Assembly: GCA_014730235.1 (NCBI GenBank)
Contig: WJIO01000125.1
Coordinates: 1-12,829, forward strand
Origin: Candidatus Poribacteria bacterium
GTDB taxonomy: Bacteria > Poribacteria > DTPJ01 > WJIO01
DNA length: 12,829 nucleotides
Direction of reading: 5' to 3'
This document shows, piece by piece, positions 2,670 to 12,829 of the stretch (the first letter of the stretch is position 1; every line of letters starts with the position of its first letter). Made by a program: the position numbers and the translations under genes. The notes under the pieces are model-generated. The model searched no databases. It saw only the letters and a list, made by a program, of their open reading frames with translations, and was not told the DNA's origin.

Positions 2670-5459
2670 TTAACGATTACTAAAATTAAACGTGCCTTTG
2701 GAGAAATACCTTCGATGGGCTTCCTGAACATAGCTGTCTTGTAAGCTTCCGTCTTTTAAGACCCTTACAGTACCTCGGTTGGCGTAATAGTGCCAGTGCC
2801 AGCCGAACTGGTCGAATATTTTCAGGTAGTCCATCATAAGGGTTAAAGCGCAGGCGTTATCATAAACGCTTTCCTCAGTCTGCTCAAAACCTCCGAATTC
2901 GCCCAGATGCATAGGTCTTCGGGAATCAATGGCAAATTTAAATGCCGGTATCCAGCGTTTTAATATATCCGTTATGTCATGATCCTGATTGGGCCAGCGA
3001 GGTGGTAGCCTGTATTCGTAGTCATGGAAGCTGTAGACTGTAAGCTCATCTCCGGTTGGCTTTAGCTTCCTGAAAGCCTCCTGGGGAAATGGACTGGCTC
3101 CGGGTCCCCAGGGCGGAAAGGCCTCCACGTATATAAGGTGATCTTTATCCACACTCCTTATGGTATGGGTTATTTTTTGTATCAAGGCGTTATAGGCCGG
3201 GTATTCCCTGGTTTCTGGCTCGTTTAGCAGATCGTAGGCTACAGCATCCGGGGGATAATCCTTACACTGTTCCGCCAGTTTCCTGAAATGCTCAACAATA
3301 TCAGGAACCCATTTTTCATCGGTGTTAAAGACGTTTTGAATACCCCTTTCCCAACACCATTCCAGGGTTTTCATGGCTCTTTCGCCGGTCTGATTATGCT
3401 GTGGTCTGAAGGTGTTAGCGCCTGTCTTTACGATAGTTTCGATCTCTGTAATGCTTCCTGGTTCGCCTATATCAGTATTTCCAAAGCAGTAAGAGGTGAA
3501 ACCTCCGAAGCGCTTTATTTTGTCCAGGGGAACCCGGTATATTATATATTCCTGATCAACTGCGGCTATATGATCTCCCCATATTCCCCTTGATCCCAGG
3601 ATTTCAGCATCGCTGATTACCTCTAAACCCGGGTAATTCGTCATTAGACCATAAGTAGCCAGTGGTGGTAGTGGTGCAACGGTTAAAGGTTCAGTTCCCC
3701 ATTCATCCTCAAAATCCCAGTAATTATATACATCAGCGCATATGATAGCGTTTCTGTCACCGGGATCAGTGGTAAATATCTCGCTGAAGGTAACAGGATA
3801 CATTAACAAAGCCCTTGACCATAGACGACACTGGCTGATAAAATCAGCCGCATCTTCTTCATCCAATGTATTAGATGTCATAATCCTGGCGGTTCTGAGG
3901 AGTCCGCGCCATTCCTTAAAGGGTCGCAGTAGGAAAAATTCTTCTTCGGTTTCGTCAAACTCTACATAAACCTCATTTGTTCCCTTTTCGTCGGTTTTGA
4001 AGACGATTTTCTCCGGGTTAGTGGTAAAGACTAGTTGTTCCGGCAGATGTGCGCCAGCAGAAAGGTCAGTCACCAGCAAAATCCAGTTTTCTTCCATCTT
4101 ACCGTGTTTTATAAGGTCATATACAATTCCGTTTTCATCGGGTTTCAGTATTCTTACCTTGCCATCCAATACAACCCAGATACCAATAGGGCCTAGATTT
4201 TGAGGTTTGTTATAGACTTTAACAGGTTCCAGATTATTCCAGCCTTTGAGCACAAATTCTTTATCCTCAGCGGTAATAAAAATTGCAGGTGATAACGGAC
4301 TGGCCAACATACGTGCCGGTGAATCAATACTTAAACCCCAGTCTTCTATATTGCTATCCAGTAACGCGTTGGTGTCGAACCATCCGAATTTATTTTCAAC
4401 ACAACTGCATAAATCGTTTATAATTCGTCTGGAACGTATTTCATCCATTAGATCCCTGCATTCGACAATTGCTGGCATTATTCCTGAGTATTCTTCTTCA
4501 TCAATAAGCTCCCGCATATGTGAAGTGAGGGCTATTAAACCATCTATTGTATATTCAGTTATTTCCAATTCACTCTCTGATGCTTCCAGAGCTTCAAGGC
4601 CTACCAGATGGTTTTCCAGATTGGTTATTTCATCCATCAAGCGGAAATACCACGTTAAAGCTTCTGCTATTGAATGTTTCCATCCCGATCGTCCTTCGGT
4701 ATCTATGGTTTCTATGGCCTTTTCCAGAATCCAGTTGGAATGTCTTTCTATGCCGCACCATCCATAGGCTTCCCATTCTACTACAGCTATACCCTTTTCT
4801 CCCAGCATTTTCAGCCGCCATTTAGCATCTTCATCCAGCTTTTTCAGGCGCGTCTCTGATAGCTGTTGACATATTTTCATAACTTGATCCCGGGATGTCT
4901 CCAGGGATTTATCCTCTTTTTCTTTAACAGGAAACCACGAGGATGAATCAAAATCTGTTTTCATGCAAGGTTCAAAATCCAGCATGGTGAGGGGAGGGAA
5001 TTTCATTACTTTCCAGTTATCCGCATTGGAAATTATCTTATCTGCTTCACCATCTTCATAAATTACATATCCCGATAATGCAAAACCATCTGCCTTTGTG
5101 CTTATTGCCAATACATTTTCACCCTTATGTAAAAGATGACCTAGTTCGATATTTATAGTTATAGGCTTTGAATCTTTATCCTGAAAATAATCGCCTATTA
5201 GATTACCATTTAGATATATGTAGATGAAGTTTGATGATATTGCCTGGAATCCGGCAGTAAAAGGTTTATCTTTTACCTCGATAATAGTTCTGTAGACTAT
5301 GGGACATACCGGATATTCATTGGTCTTCCAGAAAAGAGAACCGGGAGGAAATTCTGGTTCTTTATCATCCCAGTCAGGCTCAATCCAGGGAGCGGCATTG
5401 GCCGCTGCCAGGGCGAAGACTGAACCTAAACAGGTTATTGCAAAGGTGTTTTTCCACAT
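2670..5459 (-). CDS. Secreted multidomain glycoside hydrolase with GH5-like (clan A) catalytic domain
   Basis: Protein of 929 residues. Residues 1-22 are a Sec signal peptide (MWKN, hydrophobic core, cleavage after AANA). About 30-170 is a beta-sandwich of the GH2 sugar-binding type (YLNGNLIGDYF; HKGENVLAIST). About 180-380 is mostly helical and acidic, and about 390-530 looks beta-rich; neither is recognised. The last 300 or so residues are a TIM-barrel hydrolase: YDLLNEPE supplies the acid/base Glu747, YSFHDYEY the conserved His and Tyr, HLGEFGG the nucleophile Glu854, and WHWHYY the final aromatic strand. The 107-residue gap between the two glutamates suits GH5-type retaining hydrolases. 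Most likely it cleaves a beta-linked plant or algal polysaccharide outside the cytoplasm; the substrate cannot be read. Start ATG at 5459 is supported by AGGAG a few bases upstream and by the signal peptide. It is convergent with the glycyl radical enzyme gene and divergent from the concanavalin-like pair. Confidence 0.85.
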   Translation of the reverse strand: MWKNTFAITCLGSVFALAAANAAPWIEPDWDDKEPEFPPGSLFWKTNEYPVCPIVYRTIIEVKDKPFTAGFQAISSNFIYIYLNGNLIGDYFQDKDSKPITINIELGHLLHKGENVLAISTKADGFALSGYVIYEDGEADKIISNADNWKVMKFPPLTMLDFEPCMKTDFDSSSWFPVKEKEDKSLETSRDQVMKICQQLSETRLKKLDEDAKWRLKMLGEKGIAVVEWEAYGWCGIERHSNWILEKAIETIDTEGRSGWKHSIAEALTWYFRLMDEITNLENHLVGLEALEASESELEITEYTIDGLIALTSHMRELIDEEEYSGIMPAIVECRDLMDEIRSRRIINDLCSCVENKFGWFDTNALLDSNIEDWGLSIDSPARMLASPLSPAIFITAEDKEFVLKGWNNLEPVKVYNKPQNLGPIGIWVVLDGKVRILKPDENGIVYDLIKHGKMEENWILLVTDLSAGAHLPEQLVFTTNPEKIVFKTDEKGTNEVYVEFDETEEEFFLLRPFKEWRGLLRTARIMTSNTLDEEDAADFISQCRLWSRALLMYPVTFSEIFTTDPGDRNAIICADVYNYWDFEDEWGTEPLTVAPLPPLATYGLMTNYPGLEVISDAEILGSRGIWGDHIAAVDQEYIIYRVPLDKIKRFGGFTSYCFGNTDIGEPGSITEIETIVKTGANTFRPQHNQTGERAMKTLEWCWERGIQNVFNTDEKWVPDIVEHFRKLAEQCKDYPPDAVAYDLLNEPETREYPAYNALIQKITHTIRSVDKDHLIYVEAFPPWGPGASPFPQEAFRKLKPTGDELTVYSFHDYEYRLPPRWPNQDHDITDILKRWIPAFKFAIDSRRPMHLGEFGGFEQTEESVYDNACALTLMMDYLKIFDQFGWHWHYYANRGTVRVLKDGSLQDSYVQEAHRRYFSKGTFNFSNR

Positions 5460-5872: not shown

Positions 5873-6613
5873 ATGAAGTTTTTAGTTTCAATCATACTGG
5901 CATCAATGTTGATGCTTTTTGCTGGTGTGGTTTACGCTGTGAATCTGGACGATTTTAACGGCCAAAATCTCGACGACATGTGGACTGTTCGAGATCCTTC
6001 CAATAAAGCTGAATATCGTCTAGAAGAAGGTAAACTTATCGTTGACCTTGAAGCAGGGGCTGATATGTATATACAGGGAACAGATAATGGTGTTTGTTTC
6101 CTTATGGATCCCCCTGATATGGAAGATTTCACCCTGGAAATGAAGGTTAATGTAGCCGTTGACGGAACTCAACCTCCAGCCTGTCAGGTTGGTCCACTTC
6201 TTTTCAACGAAGGTGCCTGGGCTTATAGTGCCTGGGGTCCGTATAGTGCTGGTCAGGATATACGATTGGAAGATTGTATCGCGGCTGATTATCGCTGGCG
6301 GGATCAAACTAATATTGGTATTAACCCGGGTGATGTAGAAATAGATCAGGATGTATGGTTAAGAATTGTTAAGACTGGAGAAGAATTAGAGTTTTTTGCT
6401 AAAAGTGATGCGAATGCAGATTGGGTTTCTGGTGGTGTTGATACAAAGCTTGGGCCAAACTATACCCCGGGTAATTACCAGGTAGGTATTGTCCTCAAAA
6501 GCTGGGGAGGCTCAGTTGATAGCACCTTTGAAATAGATTATTTTAATATCCCAGAAATTGCTCCGGTAGAGTCTAACGGCAAACTGGCGACCACTTGGTC
6601 TGCCATTAAGTAG
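5873..6613 (+). CDS. Secreted concanavalin-like (DUF1349-like) protein with C-terminal KLATTWSAIK motif, copy 1
   Basis: 246 residues. Residues 1-22 are a Sec signal peptide (cleavage after VVYA). The mature part is a beta-sandwich: DFTLEMKV near 85, a highly conserved core WAYSAWGPYSAGQDI (116-130) then RLEDC, YRWRDQ at 140, WLRIVKTG...LEFFAKSD at 162-179, and SWGGSVDSTF...IDYF near the end. This layout resembles DUF1349/LamG-type concanavalin folds, which bind or act on carbohydrates; a specific role cannot be read. After a short variable linker the protein ends GKLATTWSAIK (236-246). Cys104 and Cys135 are shared with the paralog and might form a disulfide; Cys75 is not shared. AGGAGGT (5859-5865) fixes the start. 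It is followed 54 nt later by its paralog, likely in the same transcript. Roughly 60 percent of residues are identical between the two by eye. Confidence 0.85.
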   Translation: MKFLVSIILASMLMLFAGVVYAVNLDDFNGQNLDDMWTVRDPSNKAEYRLEEGKLIVDLEAGADMYIQGTDNGVCFLMDPPDMEDFTLEMKVNVAVDGTQPPACQVGPLLFNEGAWAYSAWGPYSAGQDIRLEDCIAADYRWRDQTNIGINPGDVEIDQDVWLRIVKTGEELEFFAKSDANADWVSGGVDTKLGPNYTPGNYQVGIVLKSWGGSVDSTFEIDYFNIPEIAPVESNGKLATTWSAIK

Positions 6614-6667: not shown

Positions 6668-7408
6668 ATGAAAAAGATTTTTTTCATCGCATTAGCTGTT
6701 GTTTTTTGTCTTTCAGGTACAGTATTTGCCGCTTTGGATGATTTTGATGGTACAGACCTGAGCGGAATCTGGACTCTTCGTGATCCAGCCGATAAAGCTG
6801 ATATAAGCTTTGACAATAGTGAATTAGTTCTGGATTTGGCAGCCGGTGCTGATATGTATATCAGAGGTACTGATGCTGGTGTATTACTTTTGACTGAACC
6901 ACCAGCTATGGAAGATTTCACCCTGGAAATGAAAGTCAACGCTGCTGTTGACGGAGAACAGCCCCCAGCCTGCCATATCGGTCCTGTATTTTTTAACGAA
7001 GATGCGTGGGCTTACAGCGCATGGGGACCATATAGTGCTGGTCAGGATATTCGTTTAGAAGACTGCGTGGACGCAAGCTATCGCTGGAGAGATCAGATCG
7101 GCATAGGTATTGATCCTGCCGATATTGCAGTTGATGGTGACCTGTGGTTGAGAATAGTCAGAACTGGTGACGATCTGGAGTTCTTTGCTAAAGGAAATGC
7201 CGGTGACGATTGGATGTCTGCTGGTGTAGAATCCACTTTAACTGAATATTATACCGAAGGTGACTACATGGTAGGTATAATTGCCAAGAGTTGGGGTGGC
7301 TCTGTGGACAGCACTTTCAGGATCGACTATTTTGACATTCCCGAACTTACTACTACAGCAGTCTCAGCTTCAGGTAAACTGGCTACAACCTGGTCAGCTA
7401 TTAAATAA
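6668..7408 (+). CDS. Secreted concanavalin-like (DUF1349-like) protein with C-terminal KLATTWSAIK motif, copy 2
   Basis: 246 residues, the tandem paralog of the preceding gene. Signal peptide 1-21 (cleavage after TVFA). The same beta-sandwich core is present: DFTLEMKV, WAYSAWGPYSAGQDI (114-128) then RLEDC, YRWRDQ, WLRIVRTG, SWGGSVDSTF. Cys102 and Cys133 match the conserved pair of copy 1. The most divergent parts are the signal peptide, residues 40-60, and the linker before the C-terminus (PELTTTAVSAS here). The final GKLATTWSAIK (236-246) is identical to copy 1 although the codons differ at most synonymous sites, so the identity is kept by selection rather than by recent duplication. Start set by AAGGAGG (6654-6660), 7 nt before the ATG. 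A strong terminator follows at 7445. Likely secreted or surface-attached with copy 1. Confidence 0.85.
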   Translation: MKKIFFIALAVVFCLSGTVFAALDDFDGTDLSGIWTLRDPADKADISFDNSELVLDLAAGADMYIRGTDAGVLLLTEPPAMEDFTLEMKVNAAVDGEQPPACHIGPVFFNEDAWAYSAWGPYSAGQDIRLEDCVDASYRWRDQIGIGIDPADIAVDGDLWLRIVRTGDDLEFFAKGNAGDDWMSAGVESTLTEYYTEGDYMVGIIAKSWGGSVDSTFRIDYFDIPELTTTAVSASGKLATTWSAIK

Positions 7409-7444
7409 CGATTCTTATAATAATAATTGGTTAATTAAATATTC

Positions 7445-7481
7445 AAAAACAGGGGTGTGTTTTTAACACACCCCTGTTTTT
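7445..7481 (+). terminator. Strong rho-independent terminator after the paralog pair
   Basis: A perfect 16-bp stem: AAAAACAGGGGTGTGT (7445-7460) pairs with ACACACCCCTGTTTTT (7466-7481) around a 5-nt loop. The right arm ends in T5 and the left arm begins in A5, so it can work in both directions. It starts 36 nt after the stop codon of the second paralog and insulates it from the next operon. Confidence 0.9.
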
Positions 7482-7503
7482 GATTCTTTACCAAACCCGG
7501 AGA

Positions 7504-7524: not shown

Positions 7525-7553
7525 TTGACAGCTTATAATTGTTGTGTTACAAT
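7525..7553 (+). promoter_or_regulatory. Upstream promoter P1 of the crystallin-flotillin operon
   Basis: TTGACA (7525-7530), 17-nt spacer, TACAAT (7548-7553): perfect -35 and 5 of 6 at -10. Start expected near 7560, giving a leader of about 137 nt to the ATG at 7697. Confidence 0.75.
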
Positions 7554-7557
7554 TTCC

Positions 7558-7586
7558 TTGACATGGAAAAAACGGCGAGGTATACT
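7558..7586 (+). promoter_or_regulatory. Downstream promoter P2 of the crystallin-flotillin operon
   Basis: TTGACA (7558-7563), 17-nt spacer, TATACT (7581-7586): perfect -35 and 5 of 6 at -10, exactly 33 bp downstream of P1. Its -35 box covers the P1 start region, so polymerase on P2 would compete with P1. The leader from about 7593 to 7696 is very AT-rich and shows no clear riboswitch or small gene. Confidence 0.75.
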
Positions 7587-7696
7587 CGTAATAATAATTT
7601 ATAAATAATTAGAAATAAGATTATATTTGTTATATAATTCTGGATTTAAAACTTTTACTGTTCCTGTATTCCATCCAAAACCAGGGGGGAAAGATA

Positions 7697-9142
7697 ATGA
7701 CAAATCAGTATAGACCTCCTACAGTCTATCAGCCGACTACAACATCTTACACAAGATCCAGTATTCCAATGGCTCCAATGAGACCCCGGTTGATAGCTGA
7801 GATATATCGGGATCCTTACTTCCGCGGTCCGAGAGGCCTTGTTATTTCAAACGTACCATTTACTGCCGGCATTGGCTTTCAGGATAATATATCATCCTGC
7901 CGGGTATACCGGGGACCTGGTTATGCTACCAGTCCTAATTATAAGGTAATTTTCCACGAACATAAAGATTTTAAAGGTCGCCAGTTGGTTCTGGGACCGG
8001 GTTATTATCCTAATTTACATGATATAGCATACAATTTTGGTGATACAATATCTTCTATCAGCTTTGGGCCTGCTTTGGTTACTACTGGTCCTGAGTATGG
8101 TACAATACCTCTTATAGTAGAAGTATATCAGCACGTAAATTTCCAGGGTAAAAAGGTTACAATATTACGGGATGTAAGTCATACCGAACAGATAGGACTT
8201 CATGATGCTATTTCATCAATAAGAGTATACCGGGGACCGGATTTTCCTGCCGCAGGATGTAAAGCCATTTTCTATGAACATATAGAATTTGAGGGTCAGC
8301 AGTTGGAAATACCTCTAGGGCCATTGGACTACCATAGAGAACTTCCAAATCTTCATACTCAACCTCAGTTTTTTGGTGATATTATTTCATCTGTAAAACT
8401 TGAATCCTGGGTTGCCGGCGGTACGGGAAGGTTCCGGGAGATAGTATTCCAGGACGAATTTGATACTCTCAAACCTGTATGGCAATGGATCGATCCCAAA
8501 GGCGACTGCCGCCGGGAATTAGGCAGACCAGCTACAGGCGGTATTCTCAGAGAACGTGAAGGCTGGCTTGAGATTCACGTTGGTTCAAACCATGACTTAT
8601 GGTGGGGACCAAACGGCCGGGGTGGTAATATGGATGCTCCCCGAATGATTCAGCCTGTTTCTGGCGACTTTGCACTGGAAGTTAAGATGACATCCTCACA
8701 GCAACGTAAAGAACATGGTGGTATTCTTGTCTGGAAGGATGAAAATCATTTTGTAAGATTGGATAAGACTTCTTCACTGCATGCCTTCCGAGGTGATATA
8801 CGTTTTGAGACTCATGTAAACAGGAGATATCGGGCTATAGGTCGGGGTAGACAAAATTCAGTGATGAATTTCCTTCGTCTGGAGCGAACCGGACATCAGT
8901 TCCAGGCCTATTGCAGCACAGATGGTCAGAATTGGCAATCCTGCGGAACTTCCTCTGTGGTAATGAGAGATCCTGTTATGGTGGGTATGCATGCACTTTG
9001 TCCGGGTAATACACCACCGACAGTTACAAGATTTGACTATTTCAAGATTATAAGACCGGCTGCTACAACCAGTTTGGGATTGGCTTCTCAGACAACTACC
9101 CAGGGTACATCAACGGCAACGACCCAAACACCCTTAAGGTAG
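7697..9142 (+). CDS. Beta/gamma-crystallin (four repeats) plus DUF1349-like domain protein
   Basis: 481 residues, no signal peptide or membrane segment, so probably cytoplasmic. Residues 31-72, 83-124, 138-179 and 188-236 are four Greek-key crystallin repeats (IAEIYRDPYFRG; KVIFHEHKDFKG; IVEVYQHVNFQG; KAIFYEHIEFEG). Each ends in a motif of the calcium-binding type: DNISS 63-67, DTISS 116-120, DAISS 170-174, DIISS 228-232. Pairs are joined by a conserved GPALVTTGPEYGTIP linker. Residues 248-454 form a DUF1349/concanavalin-like sandwich (FQDEFDTLKPVWQW; DFALEVKM; FLRLERTG; RFDYFKII), distantly like the secreted paralogs at 5873 and 6668. The tail 455-481 is Thr/Gln-rich and probably disordered. 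The ATG is preceded by AGGGGGGA. It is first in an operon with a second crystallin protein 16 nt later. Domains are clear; the cellular role is unknown, with calcium-dependent structural or stress binding the family-based guess. Confidence 0.85.
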   Translation: MTNQYRPPTVYQPTTTSYTRSSIPMAPMRPRLIAEIYRDPYFRGPRGLVISNVPFTAGIGFQDNISSCRVYRGPGYATSPNYKVIFHEHKDFKGRQLVLGPGYYPNLHDIAYNFGDTISSISFGPALVTTGPEYGTIPLIVEVYQHVNFQGKKVTILRDVSHTEQIGLHDAISSIRVYRGPDFPAAGCKAIFYEHIEFEGQQLEIPLGPLDYHRELPNLHTQPQFFGDIISSVKLESWVAGGTGRFREIVFQDEFDTLKPVWQWIDPKGDCRRELGRPATGGILREREGWLEIHVGSNHDLWWGPNGRGGNMDAPRMIQPVSGDFALEVKMTSSQQRKEHGGILVWKDENHFVRLDKTSSLHAFRGDIRFETHVNRRYRAIGRGRQNSVMNFLRLERTGHQFQAYCSTDGQNWQSCGTSSVVMRDPVMVGMHALCPGNTPPTVTRFDYFKIIRPAATTSLGLASQTTTQGTSTATTQTPLR

Positions 9143-9158
9143 TAAGGAGCAGATATTA

Positions 9159-11213
9159 ATGTCAATGTCACCAAGGGTTATTGCTGAGGTATTTCGTGAC
9201 CCAAATTATAGAGGGAAAAAGGTTACTATAGTTGATTCAGTGACTGATACTAAAGAGATCGGTTGCAATGATATGATTTCCTCTATAAAGGTATATAAAG
9301 GCCCAGGTTTCGATGCTTCACCGAGTTACAAAGCTATTTTCTACGAGCATCCAAACTTTACAGGCCGTAAAATAGCTTTACCTCCGGGATTCTACCCAAA
9401 TATTCATCATATACCATATAACTTTGGTGATACTATATCCTCAATTCAGTTTGCCCCTGCCCTGGTGTCTACCGGTCCTGATTATGGTGTTGTGCCAATG
9501 ATTGTTGAGCTTTACAGAGATACAAATCTTAGAGGTACAAAGGGTGTTGTCCTTAAGGATATTAGTCATACCCGTCAGATTGGTATGGATAATCAGGTAT
9601 CATCCATCAGGATCATGAGAGGTCCGAATTTTCCGTCTACAGGATGTAAGGTTGTTTTCTTTGAACAGCCTAACTTTGAGGGTGCAAGTTTTTCATTAAG
9701 CATAAGCAAACTGGAATACGAAAAGACCATACCTGATTTACACTATCATCCTCAGCGCTTTGGTGATATAATATCCTCAGTCAGAATTGTTCCAACGGGC
9801 ATATTTAACGTATTAATTGTAATCGGTGATACCCGCAGTATGGAGCCACCTTTTCTGACCGGTTTGACAAATATTGAGGGAAATACGTTTAATTATACAA
9901 CTGTTATTGTTAATCCCAATCCCGATAACCACGGCGATCCTAACAGGGCTATTGCGCTGAATTCTATGGATTTATCAAATTTTGATATTGTCTGGTTTAC
10001 GTGGAACGCTCCGGGGCATGATGGTCAGTATTTTATGGACGGCGCAGAAAGCGCGATACAAGATTTTGTTGCTGAGGGTGGTACTGTTTGGGTGTCGGCT
10101 ATAGATAATAATGTCCACGATGGACGCTGGCGGGGTGGATGGTTGCCTGTTGAGGAACATCCTATTCAGGTTGTTGATTCTGAGGATGCCAACGTGACAA
10201 TTACGCCGCTTGGAGCCAGTTCGGGTTTGTTTTCCTGGCCAAACAAGATCGATCCCAACGATATTATTACAGATGATCACTGGGTAACGAGTGATCCTTC
10301 ATACAGGGTGCTTGCAACCAGACGTGCAGTTATAAAAGTTTTGGTAGTTGTCAGTGATAGTCGTACCAAAGAGCATGAAGTACTTCAGCAGTATAAGGTA
10401 TTATCAGGAAATAACTTTTCGTTTGATGTTGTGCATATAAATCCCAATACTGATAACTATGGCAATCCAAAGGCCGTTAAATTGAGCAGTATTGACTTAT
10501 TCCAATATGATATATTATGGTTTACATGGAATGGACCTGGCCATGACCGGGAATACTTTGTAGCAGATGCTGATGCCCTTATCAGGAACTTTGTTGCTCG
10601 CGGTGGTGTTGTATGGGCTTCAGCTATGGACGATAATATTGTTGAGGGTAAAGGATGGCGTGGTACATGGATGCCTGTGGATAGACATCCTATAAGGGTT
10701 GTAAATTCAAACGACAGTGGAATCCTCATAACTGCAATAGGTAACACTTCCGGTCTTTTTACACAACCCAACCGTATAAATGTTGATGCCCTTGTAACTG
10801 ACGATCACTGGGTAACCAGTGATAAGGCCTATGAGCATCTGGCCGTGAGAAAAGATAACGGTCAGCCAGTAGGAATCCAGCTAAGATGGGGTGCTGGTCA
10901 ATACGTGTCCTTTGCAATAGATACCAGAGATGATGCCAGAACCCAAGCTGCAAGACCACTGATTCAGAATGCCTTGAATTATGTGGCCCGTTTGGTAGCT
11001 TTAAAGGGTGAATATGTAAGCCTTCAGTTGAAATGGGGTAGAGGTCGTTATGTGACCCTGGCGATGGATACCAGAGATCCAGCCAGAGCACAGTTGGCAA
11101 AACCTCTTATTCAGAACGCCCTTTGTTATCTAGCTGGATTGGCCTGGCAGACTTCACCCAGACAGTTATTCGGTATGAGACATGATAGAATGGCGCATAG
11201 TATAGAATTTTGA
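9159..11213 (+). CDS. Beta/gamma-crystallin (four repeats) plus tandem amidotransferase-fold domain protein
   Basis: 684 residues without signal peptide. Residues 5-210 are four crystallin repeats closely matching those of the upstream gene, with calcium-type motifs NDMISS (37-42), DTISS (91-95), DNQVSS (144-149) and DIISS (203-207). Residues 216-387 and 392-563 are two copies of a Rossmann-like domain: VLIVIGDTRS / VLVVVSDSRT, DIVWFTWNAPGHD / DILWFTWNGPGHD, FVAEGGTVWVSAIDNN / FVARGGVVWASAMDDN, DDHWVTSD in both. The fold resembles class I glutamine amidotransferase or ThuA-like domains, but the nucleophile-elbow region has no Cys, so catalysis of that type is unlikely. Two further 42-residue repeats follow (571-612, 619-661; RWGAGQYVSFAIDTRD / KWGRGRYVTLAMDTRD), which look like the closing strand and helix of the same domains. 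AAGGAG (9144-9149) fixes the start. The flotillin gene begins 44 nt downstream. Function not recognised. Confidence 0.82.
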   Translation: MSMSPRVIAEVFRDPNYRGKKVTIVDSVTDTKEIGCNDMISSIKVYKGPGFDASPSYKAIFYEHPNFTGRKIALPPGFYPNIHHIPYNFGDTISSIQFAPALVSTGPDYGVVPMIVELYRDTNLRGTKGVVLKDISHTRQIGMDNQVSSIRIMRGPNFPSTGCKVVFFEQPNFEGASFSLSISKLEYEKTIPDLHYHPQRFGDIISSVRIVPTGIFNVLIVIGDTRSMEPPFLTGLTNIEGNTFNYTTVIVNPNPDNHGDPNRAIALNSMDLSNFDIVWFTWNAPGHDGQYFMDGAESAIQDFVAEGGTVWVSAIDNNVHDGRWRGGWLPVEEHPIQVVDSEDANVTITPLGASSGLFSWPNKIDPNDIITDDHWVTSDPSYRVLATRRAVIKVLVVVSDSRTKEHEVLQQYKVLSGNNFSFDVVHINPNTDNYGNPKAVKLSSIDLFQYDILWFTWNGPGHDREYFVADADALIRNFVARGGVVWASAMDDNIVEGKGWRGTWMPVDRHPIRVVNSNDSGILITAIGNTSGLFTQPNRINVDALVTDDHWVTSDKAYEHLAVRKDNGQPVGIQLRWGAGQYVSFAIDTRDDARTQAARPLIQNALNYVARLVALKGEYVSLQLKWGRGRYVTLAMDTRDPARAQLAKPLIQNALCYLAGLAWQTSPRQLFGMRHDRMAHSIEF

Positions 11214-11257
11214 TTTTTCACCAGTAACAAGTTCAAGCATATAGGGGGACATAAGAG

Positions 11258-12829
11258 ATGCGTCTTGTGGCTGCAATCTTATCATTGGCAGGACTGATAA
11301 TACTATCAGCCGTGATGTTTACCTTCACAGAATTTAAAGTCAGTTTTCTGGCTATATCTGTGGTTGTTGTAGTAACTCTGGCGGTTTTCTTTGCTGTAAT
11401 ATATAGATATTATCGTCCTAAAGCCGACCAGGCGTTAGTTAGAACAGGTGGACGTCATTACAAAATTGCCTTCGCTGGTGGTGGTCTATGGAGCAATACC
11501 ATATTCCACGAGGTCCGTCCTGTAGCCCTTAACACAATGCGCCTTGATATATCCCGCCAGGGACCTGAAGAATCATTGATTACAGAAGACTTTATGCGTG
11601 CTGATGTTCAGGCTGTCTTTTACGTTAAAGTAAGACCCGATGAGGAAAACGTTATCAAAGCAGCCCAGACCCTTGGTGAAAGAACTGTTCCCCCCCAAGA
11701 ATTACGGAGATTCTTAAGCATAGGTAGAAGACGGCAAGGAGCATCTGGTACAGGCAGAGAAGCAGAACAAGATTTATTGCTGGAAAATATAAAAGCCCTA
11801 CTGGATGATAAAGTGGATGGTGCTTTAAGAGCTGTTGCCGCGACAATGACCTTAGAGGAACTTCAGAAAGAACGTCAAAAATTCGCCGAAGAAGTACGAG
11901 TAGTATGTCAGGAAGACCTGGAAGAAAACGGTCTGGCTCTGGAAACAGTAACTATAACTATGCTCAACCAGACACCTGTGGCCGAAATGGATCCGGAGAA
12001 CCGATTTGATGCTGAAGGTATCAAGAAGATTACTGAAATTACAAAAAGGGCTTATAAAGAAAAAGAAAAGATAGTTAAGGATACTGATGTTTCAGTAAAA
12101 GAGATCGAAGTTGACGCTGCTAAAAAGAAATTTATACTGGAAAAAGATAAAGCATGGGCTGAAGCCGAAATGCAGAAGGACATAGCCACGTATTCTGCTG
12201 AGAAGGAAGCTGAAACTATCAAGGTTTCATTTGAGCAGGAACTTATAGGTAAAAAAGCCGGTATTATAAAAGACCAGGAACTTCAAAAAGCAGAAATAGA
12301 TAAAACCCGAGAAGTCGAAGTCGCCAGAGTCGATCAGGAACAAAAAGTCGCCGAAAAGGAAATCGAGAAAAACTTAATTGTTGAAACTAAGACTATTGAC
12401 CAGGGTCAGAAGGTTCAGGAACGAGAGATCGAGATGAAACTTCAGGTTGCCCTGAAGCGTATAGAGCAGGAAAGGGAAGTCGAAACCAAAGAATACGACA
12501 AGATACTTGCTGTTGAAAAAGCCCGTATTATCCAGGAAGAGGGTATGGAAGTCCGGTCTGTGGAAAAGGTTCTTGCTGTTGCTATGGCCAAGATACAGCA
12601 GGAAGAACAAGTCATGGAACGTGAGATCGAAAAGAACAGAGTTATTGAAGTAGCTCAGATAGAACAAAGCCAGAAGGTTCAGGAACGTGAGATAGAGCGA
12701 AACCTTGTTATCCAGCAGGTGACCTACGATGCCCAGGTAGGCATCAAGGAAGCCGAGACCGAATCCCTCAAGAAACAGTATGTGCTTGAGAAAGACCGAG
12801 CCGTTGTAGACGCGGACCAGAAGAAGATC
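11258..12829 (+). CDS. Flotillin/YqiK-like SPFH membrane scaffold protein, 3' end outside window
   Basis: Open from ATG 11258 through the window end (524 codons, no stop). AGGGGGA (11243-11249) precedes the start. Two hydrophobic segments (about 4-22 and 29-49) anchor the N-terminus, followed by an SPFH/band 7 domain at about 55-240 (DFMRADVQAVFYVKVRPD; LDDKVDGALRAVAATMTLEEL; EENGLALETVTITMLNQT). This matches the YqiK branch of bacterial flotillins, which oligomerise on the inner membrane and organise lipid domains. A basic, low-complexity insert (RRRQGASGTGRE, 157-168) interrupts the SPFH region. From about 260 the protein is a highly charged coiled coil, within which residues 335-488 are seven consecutive 22-residue repeats. 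A partner such as NfeD could lie beyond the edge. Being third behind two crystallin genes suggests a joint function at the membrane. Confidence 0.85.
   Translation, partial: MRLVAAILSLAGLIILSAVMFTFTEFKVSFLAISVVVVVTLAVFFAVIYRYYRPKADQALVRTGGRHYKIAFAGGGLWSNTIFHEVRPVALNTMRLDISRQGPEESLITEDFMRADVQAVFYVKVRPDEENVIKAAQTLGERTVPPQELRRFLSIGRRRQGASGTGREAEQDLLLENIKALLDDKVDGALRAVAATMTLEELQKERQKFAEEVRVVCQEDLEENGLALETVTITMLNQTPVAEMDPENRFDAEGIKKITEITKRAYKEKEKIVKDTDVSVKEIEVDAAKKKFILEKDKAWAEAEMQKDIATYSAEKEAETIKVSFEQELIGKKAGIIKDQELQKAEIDKTREVEVARVDQEQKVAEKEIEKNLIVETKTIDQGQKVQEREIEMKLQVALKRIEQEREVETKEYDKILAVEKARIIQEEGMEVRSVEKVLAVAMAKIQQEEQVMEREIEKNRVIEVAQIEQSQKVQEREIERNLVIQQVTYDAQVGIKEAETESLKKQYVLEKDRAVVDADQKKI
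12260..12721 (+). repeat. Seven 22-residue (66-nt) coiled-coil repeats inside the flotillin gene
   Basis: Residues 335-356, 357-378, 379-400, 401-422, 423-444, 445-466 and 467-488 align without any gap. A hydrophobic residue stands at position 2, and at position 13 of nearly every unit (often within EREIE), and usually a small or hydrophobic one at 19. Units 2, 3 and 7 share QKV.E.EIE. Twenty-two residues equal two hendecads (11+11), the periodicity of straight or slightly right-handed coiled coils. The nucleotide copies have diverged, so this is an old protein-level repeat. Confidence 0.75.

Follow-up and report, generated by a model that had tools for sequence, protein, structure and literature searches.

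Three genes, termed A, B and SPFH, occupy the 3′ part of the window, by which the whole stretch of DNA that was analysed is meant (12,829 bp; all of contig C44 of a poribacterial genome assembly with 451 contigs and 5.5 Mb). All three lie on the plus strand with intergenic gaps of 16 and 44 nt, in line with the close spacing given in the original prediction. The following features were assigned to the genes and to the region upstream of them.

7443-7483, no strand assigned: hairpin with a 19-bp stem (terminator scan and sequence)
7525-7553, plus strand: promoter-like site 1, TTGACA-17-TACAAT, with TG preceding the second hexamer (11/12 consensus)
7558-7586, plus strand: promoter-like site 2, TTGACA-17-TATACT (11/12 consensus)
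7697-9142, plus strand: gene A, 481 aa, four beta/gamma-crystallin repeats and DUF1349, a concanavalin-like sandwich (Pfam, hydropathy)
7775-8401, plus strand: crystallin module of A, motifs QDNISS, GDTISS, HDAISS and GDIISS (position 1 non-canonical)
9159-11213, plus strand: gene B, 684 aa, four crystallin repeats and two ThuA/GATase1-like domains (Pfam, fold); the core partner gene of flotillin
9159-9788, plus strand: crystallin module of B, motifs NDMISS, GDTISS, DNQVSS and GDIISS
9792-10325, plus strand: ThuA-like domain 1 of B, first part; its last strands and helix follow domain 2 at ~aa 614-665 (alignment)
10326-10997, plus strand: ThuA-like domain 2 of B, inserted within domain 1 (alignment)
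11258-12829, plus strand: SPFH/flotillin gene, open at the contig end; N-terminal two-helix hairpin, SPFH domain and hendecad coiled coil
11264-11401, plus strand: two predicted membrane helices of the SPFH protein, aa 3-21 and 30-48 (Kyte-Doolittle windows)

The tandem promoters that had been predicted upstream of A were recovered at the sequence level as two TTGACA-led candidate sites, i.e. as matches to the consensus only; both sit just 3′ of the hairpin. This hairpin is probably a bidirectional terminator and would insulate the A-B-SPFH unit from an upstream lectin-like pair.

Directly 5′ of the unit, tandem paralogous genes (5873-6613 and 6668-7408) encode secreted proteins of 246 aa for which no Pfam family scored over its cut-off. 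These two and further secreted proteins of the phylum (L202:3371-4210 and 4372-5151; L204, L206 and L207) share the C-terminal tail K-L-x-T-T-W-G/S-x-I/L/V-K, which looks like a phylum-wide sorting or anchoring signal. The remaining genes of the window encode a 929-aa exported protein (2670-5459), whose C-terminal domain is of the GH5 cellulase type and whose large N-terminal part has no assigned family, and a glycyl radical enzyme (176-2431), which scored far below every NCBIfam equivalog cut-off; its likely active-site cysteine lies in GCHW and its glycyl radical site in RVTGFSAYF.

Domain composition of the encoded proteins

Crystallin modules: The same N-terminal module of four crystallin repeats, as originally claimed, was found in A and B (Pfam PF00030, Crystall; 64 bits each), and the C-terminal half of A was confirmed as DUF1349-like (52.9 bits; cut-off 32.4). 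The first full-length model of B was of low confidence across the second ThuA-like domain, and only its crystallin fold was used; by using Foldseek, lens crystallins were retrieved with the crystallin model of B (E 1e-12), and the best microbial match of the module among solved structures was Protein S (E 1.9e-9). The module was not found in viral contigs, and a viral origin was rejected for this reason.

Calcium motifs: Calcium-type motifs had been predicted in all repeats. The core D/N-x-x-S-S is indeed present in all eight, but the canonical form, N/D-N/D-x-x-S/T-S (PMC3551895), occurs in two only, namely repeats 1 (NDMISS) and 3 (DNQVSS) of B; the acidic or amide residue at motif position 1 is absent from the other six. 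Calcium sites in all eight repeats were therefore rejected as stated. The literature gave nothing usable on the detailed geometry of non-canonical crystallin motifs. Among 58 B proteins, the canonical motif was counted in 5 for repeat 1, in none for repeat 2, in 57 for repeat 3 and in 1 for repeat 4; given this constancy of repeat 3, one calcium half-site of B looks conserved by selection. Judged by these motifs, repeat 3 of B is the only one with good support for calcium competence. Canonical calcium motifs are nearly absent from 36 A proteins, and calcium sensing by A is not supported by the motifs.

ThuA-like domains of B: The C-terminal part of B had been described as a tandem amidotransferase-fold pair. 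The GATase1/ThuA fold was recovered, but the nucleophile cysteine is lacking and domain 2 is nested inside domain 1. A fold model was computed for the single-domain form (257 aa; 36 sequences; pLDDT 90), and its best fold matches were ThuA-like or type 1 GATase-like proteins (1t0b, 3rht and 4pxy; Z 15, ~195 of 257 residues at 3 Å), with many GATase1 chains matching at Z 12-14. The Pfam ThuA profile (PF06283) matched 5 of the 36 members weakly and none significantly (best E 0.029). The nucleophile elbow of the B domain reads WASAMD(D/N)N, without a conserved Cys, which makes amidotransferase activity of B unlikely; an active amidotransferase was rejected on this ground. ThuA-like domain 2 was seen only in the window genome and in its nearest relative, G001. 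A ThuA-like domain nested in its sister domain, with the last segment duplicated, was observed in B (9792-11210) and at L097:2578-3999, in families f1 and f2 only.

Neither a signal peptide nor a membrane helix was seen by hydropathy in A, B or the zinc-ribbon protein described below; the one stretch of B that was flagged as hydrophobic corresponds to strand 1 of its ThuA-like domain. Elsewhere in the phylum, ThuA-like relatives occur as tandem copies with signal-peptide-like N termini and the C-terminal tail of the phylum. These N termini mark B as a predicted cytosolic fusion that is built from an otherwise exported domain. As regards the predicted layout of a shared head with divergent effectors, the tails do differ, but the supposed effectors are a lectin-like sandwich in A and a Cys-less ThuA-like domain in B.

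SPFH protein: The third gene was predicted to encode a two-helix SPFH protein with a very long coiled coil, and two putative membrane helices, a Band_7 domain (PF01145; 52.2 bits; cut-off 23.6) and hendecad repeats agree with this. The contig ends within the gene, whose final 44 bases overlap exactly with the end of C288, another contig of this genome, on which it continues (L202:7582-8742, minus strand) for 386 further codons to a total of ~896 aa. The continuation holds a Flot domain (PF15975; 68.3 bits; cut-off 27), which is also present in relatives. With the NCBIfam FloT equivalog (NF058507), 43.7 bits were obtained, below the curated cut-off, versus 700 for the full-length relative in G083. 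The nearest solved structures by sequence are those of human flotillin-1/2, with which the SPFH domain, the coiled coil and the C-terminal flotillin region align.

An 11-residue periodicity of the coiled coil is evident from Fourier peaks (2.75 and 5.5) and from peaks of identity at lags of 22, 44 and 88. An 88-residue unit was expanded or contracted between families, with flotillins of up to ~1,290 residues in all; the hendecad 88-residue super-repeats (window 11258-12829; L103:9803-13672; L104:7644-11270) are 92-93% alike in family f5. The contig break falls within the repeated coiled coil, in which the gene of G001 is broken too, so that the true repeat number could be higher than in the ~896-aa form. 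In G004, the flotillin orthologue (L101:1038-2684) has no such N-terminal hairpin; it may be a soluble protein or a peripheral one.

Zinc-ribbon protein: A fourth gene was located outside the window on C288, 3′ of the flotillin gene; its 240-aa product has the cysteines of a zinc ribbon at either end. In relatives of 416-474 aa, varied domains lie between these same two ends (LamG in G024, F5/8C in G023, no assigned family in others), and the protein is without insert in the window genome, G001 and G010. A receiver-SpoIIE phosphatase is encoded directly 3′ of the zinc-ribbon gene (L202:5541-6689) in this genome, not in G001; it may point to stress-sigma control.

Conservation of the unit in Poribacteria

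Conservation was searched in 84 Poribacteria genomes, in which orthologues were split from paralogues by score and place. Before that split, the crystallin module was counted in 76 genomes, SPFH genes including paralogues also in 76, and the ThuA-like domain in 82. A conserved neighbourhood in related genomes, set as the test beforehand, was found: B is followed by flotillin on the same contig and strand in 69 of the 84, in seven families with different flanks. Both genes are present in 70 genomes (one pair split by contig ends), B stands at a contig end in one, neither is present in 13 and flotillin alone in none; these are raw counts that ignore relatedness, and Fisher's test of the co-occurrence, which ignores it likewise, was not taken as a probability. 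The gap between B and SPFH is −4 to 125 nt in 15 of the 16 genomes measured and 1.4 kb in G009; in G008 the genes overlap.

The zinc-ribbon gene (present in 71 of the 84) is co-directional with flotillin and 3′ of it in 59 genomes, up to 4.7 kb off in G027. Gene A is a facultative part of the unit. It lies directly 5′ of B in 11 of the 84 genomes, from seven families; in the large sponge-symbiont family f10, to which the sponge-derived genomes belong, it is found apart from B, with an oligogalacturonate-lyase-like gene and a LamG gene as neighbours. G011, which lacks B and flotillin, has several A-like genes and also the zinc-ribbon gene; in G005 and G006, both of which are incomplete, A-like genes alone were found.

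The flanks of the block vary (respiratory complex I genes 3′ in G023, an M6 peptidase in G083), and none of the other four genes of the window clusters with any neighbour in 33 other loci. Since the block is kept while the surrounding genes change, with the order B-flotillin(-zinc-ribbon) conserved across families, a chance neighbourhood was rejected. B, flotillin and the zinc-ribbon gene are jointly absent from 12 genomes; solid cases are G022 (one contig, 98% complete) and G012/G013. G065 was rejected as an independent loss, as a neighbouring peptidase gene is missing too and an assembly gap is likely. The multi-component crystallin-flotillin unit that had been proposed is strongly supported by conserved order and co-absence, but in a changed composition, with B, flotillin and the zinc-ribbon protein as its core.

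In 302 sampled genomes outside Poribacteria, the crystallin module profile gave two weak matches (vs 76/84 inside) and the ThuA-like domain profile gave none. This sample of other phyla is a better test of specificity than a collection-wide scan, in which all entries shown among the best 80 of 119 relatives were Poribacteria and rare outsiders are possible. PADLOC returned no match for any part of the unit, and anti-phage defence was rejected on this basis. Of 19 genomes, 18 had an NfeD gene (PF01957), which in every case lay on a different contig from flotillin or a long way from it; an NfeD gene hidden near flotillin was rejected, as none was found nearby.

Proposed role and comparison with known systems

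NfeD is the conserved partner of SPFH2-type prokaryotic flotillins (PMC2636767), and human flotillin-1/2 form a cone-shaped, membrane-attached cage (PMC11260169). Because NfeD is encoded elsewhere, B lies beside flotillin and the nearest structures are cage-forming, B is proposed as the dedicated soluble partner of such a cage. We tentatively favour, as a reading that falls a little short of probable, a Poribacteria-specific flotillin scaffold unit in which the NfeD slot would be held by the cytosolic crystallin-ThuA-like protein B, with calcium-stabilised docking. The SPFH protein would be anchored by its N-terminal hairpin, and its SPFH domain, long coiled coil of hendecads and Flot region would face the cytosol; by homology to flotillin-1/2 it would build a cone-shaped membrane cage, for which B would replace NfeD. 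In B, the crystallin head may be a rigid pair of domains that has one or more conserved calcium half-sites, and the ThuA-like tail may be of a type that binds a ligand or sugar without catalysis. The zinc-ribbon protein would be the third core part; A would be an accessory in which the same crystallin head is joined to a lectin-like sandwich. Through the heads, the tails would be docked on the flotillin cage or in its interior, and calcium influx via a damaged membrane would stabilise this docking. Known crystallin domains bind Ca2+ at 4-100 µM (PMC3551895), so that a cytosolic site would respond to influx, not to resting levels, and a part in membrane protection is known for SPFH proteins of bacteria (PMC8581546). 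What the data show is which genes are present, their order and co-occurrence, the identity of the domains and the fold predicted for the ThuA-like domain; from these we infer topology, a physical complex, calcium dependence and a role in membrane protection, while gene linkage can reflect co-expression without contact. Weighing against this reading are the non-canonical repeats (six of eight in the window, and nearly all of those in A), the A-like genes of G011, G005 and G006 in genomes with neither B nor flotillin, and the hairpin-less flotillin of G004. A further-reaching form, which we consider improbable, is a phylum-confined membrane cage with a flotillin chamber whose wall length would follow the number of hendecad repeats. 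It would enclose a zinc-ribbon adaptor and a crystallin-headed protein that responds to calcium, or be gated by them, and the tails would have been swapped between lineages.

The main rival of the flotillin-B cage is a glycan-handling scaffold, in which flotillin would gather sugar-binding proteins of the cytosol, either at the membrane or on a polysaccharide granule. The working parts would be the sugar-binding-type folds of A, B and the zinc-ribbon inserts, with the crystallin as a structural adaptor and calcium incidental. The DUF1349/GH43_C2-type sandwich of A, the ThuA-like proteins that head the fold list of the B tail, the family-specific zinc-ribbon inserts and the neighbours of A in f10 are consistent with it, as are the bipolar, non-membrane granules of Poribacteria, which are thought to be carbon reserves (PMC5087111). 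However, the core unit shares no enzyme, the window genome, G001 and G010 do without the insert, sugar genes beside A were seen in f10 only, and sugar binding by DUF1349 or the ThuA-like domain is putative; we regard such a scaffold as unlikely.

A lower probability is given to a dormancy or stress protein of the Protein S/spherulin 3a kind, with an extremely stable head and with B and A packed densely in resting cells, for which flotillin would be co-regulated and not a partner. The Protein S match and the receiver-SpoIIE phosphatase 3′ of the unit point this way, but the phosphatase was not found beside the unit in G001, and the strict B-flotillin order and the co-absence across families ask for more than shared regulation. 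That the genes are merely co-transcribed in an ordinary operon, without functional link and kept by descent within one phylum, is very unlikely: all cases do come from one phylum, to which the entries shown among the best 80 of the 119 scan relatives belong as well, but the other four genes of the window have no clustered neighbours in the 33 loci and all three core genes are absent together from G022 and G012/G013.

Flotillins are near-universal membrane scaffolds of poorly defined function, and a partner swap in one lineage, as proposed for B, would be a clean test of the partner's role. Bacterial beta/gamma-crystallins, mostly studied as isolated calcium binders, gain a conserved genomic partner, and the unit is one candidate explanation of how poribacterial cells are compartmented. 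In agreement with the original prediction, the literature search returned no description that joins crystallins with flotillins in bacteria, nor Poribacteria with flotillin; matches for Poribacteria with crystallin, as far as their entries go, appear to be words such as "crystalline".

The unit shares with the NfeD/YuaF-FloT(YuaG) and YqiJ-YqiK operons (PMC2636767) a flotillin-type SPFH gene and an adjoining, conserved gene for a dedicated partner; theirs is the membrane-bound NfeD, whereas the partner here is a predicted cytosolic crystallin-ThuA-like fusion. The coiled coil is longer than in FloT or YqiK and varies by 88-residue hendecad super-repeats. With the human flotillin-1/2 cage (PDB 9bq2 and 9l3g), the Poribacteria protein has the SPFH domain, coiled coil and C-terminal flotillin region in common; it differs in its predicted N-terminal membrane hairpin and single gene, and its cage is a prediction. 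The tail of B has the fold of ThuA-like or type 1 GATase-like proteins (1t0b, 3rht and 4pxy) but is without their catalytic Cys at the elbow, is fused to a crystallin module and is not significantly matched by Pfam ThuA. In Protein S of Myxococcus xanthus, which lacks a signal peptide, four Greek-key motifs form two domains, and the crystallin module described here is likewise made of four. Like Protein S and spherulin 3a, the proteins of the unit have motifs of the N/D-N/D-x-x-S/T-S type and show no signal peptide; unlike them, the module heads multidomain fusions beside flotillin, and most repeats are non-canonical. The individual folds are known, and it is the crystallin-flotillin combination and its conservation that are new.
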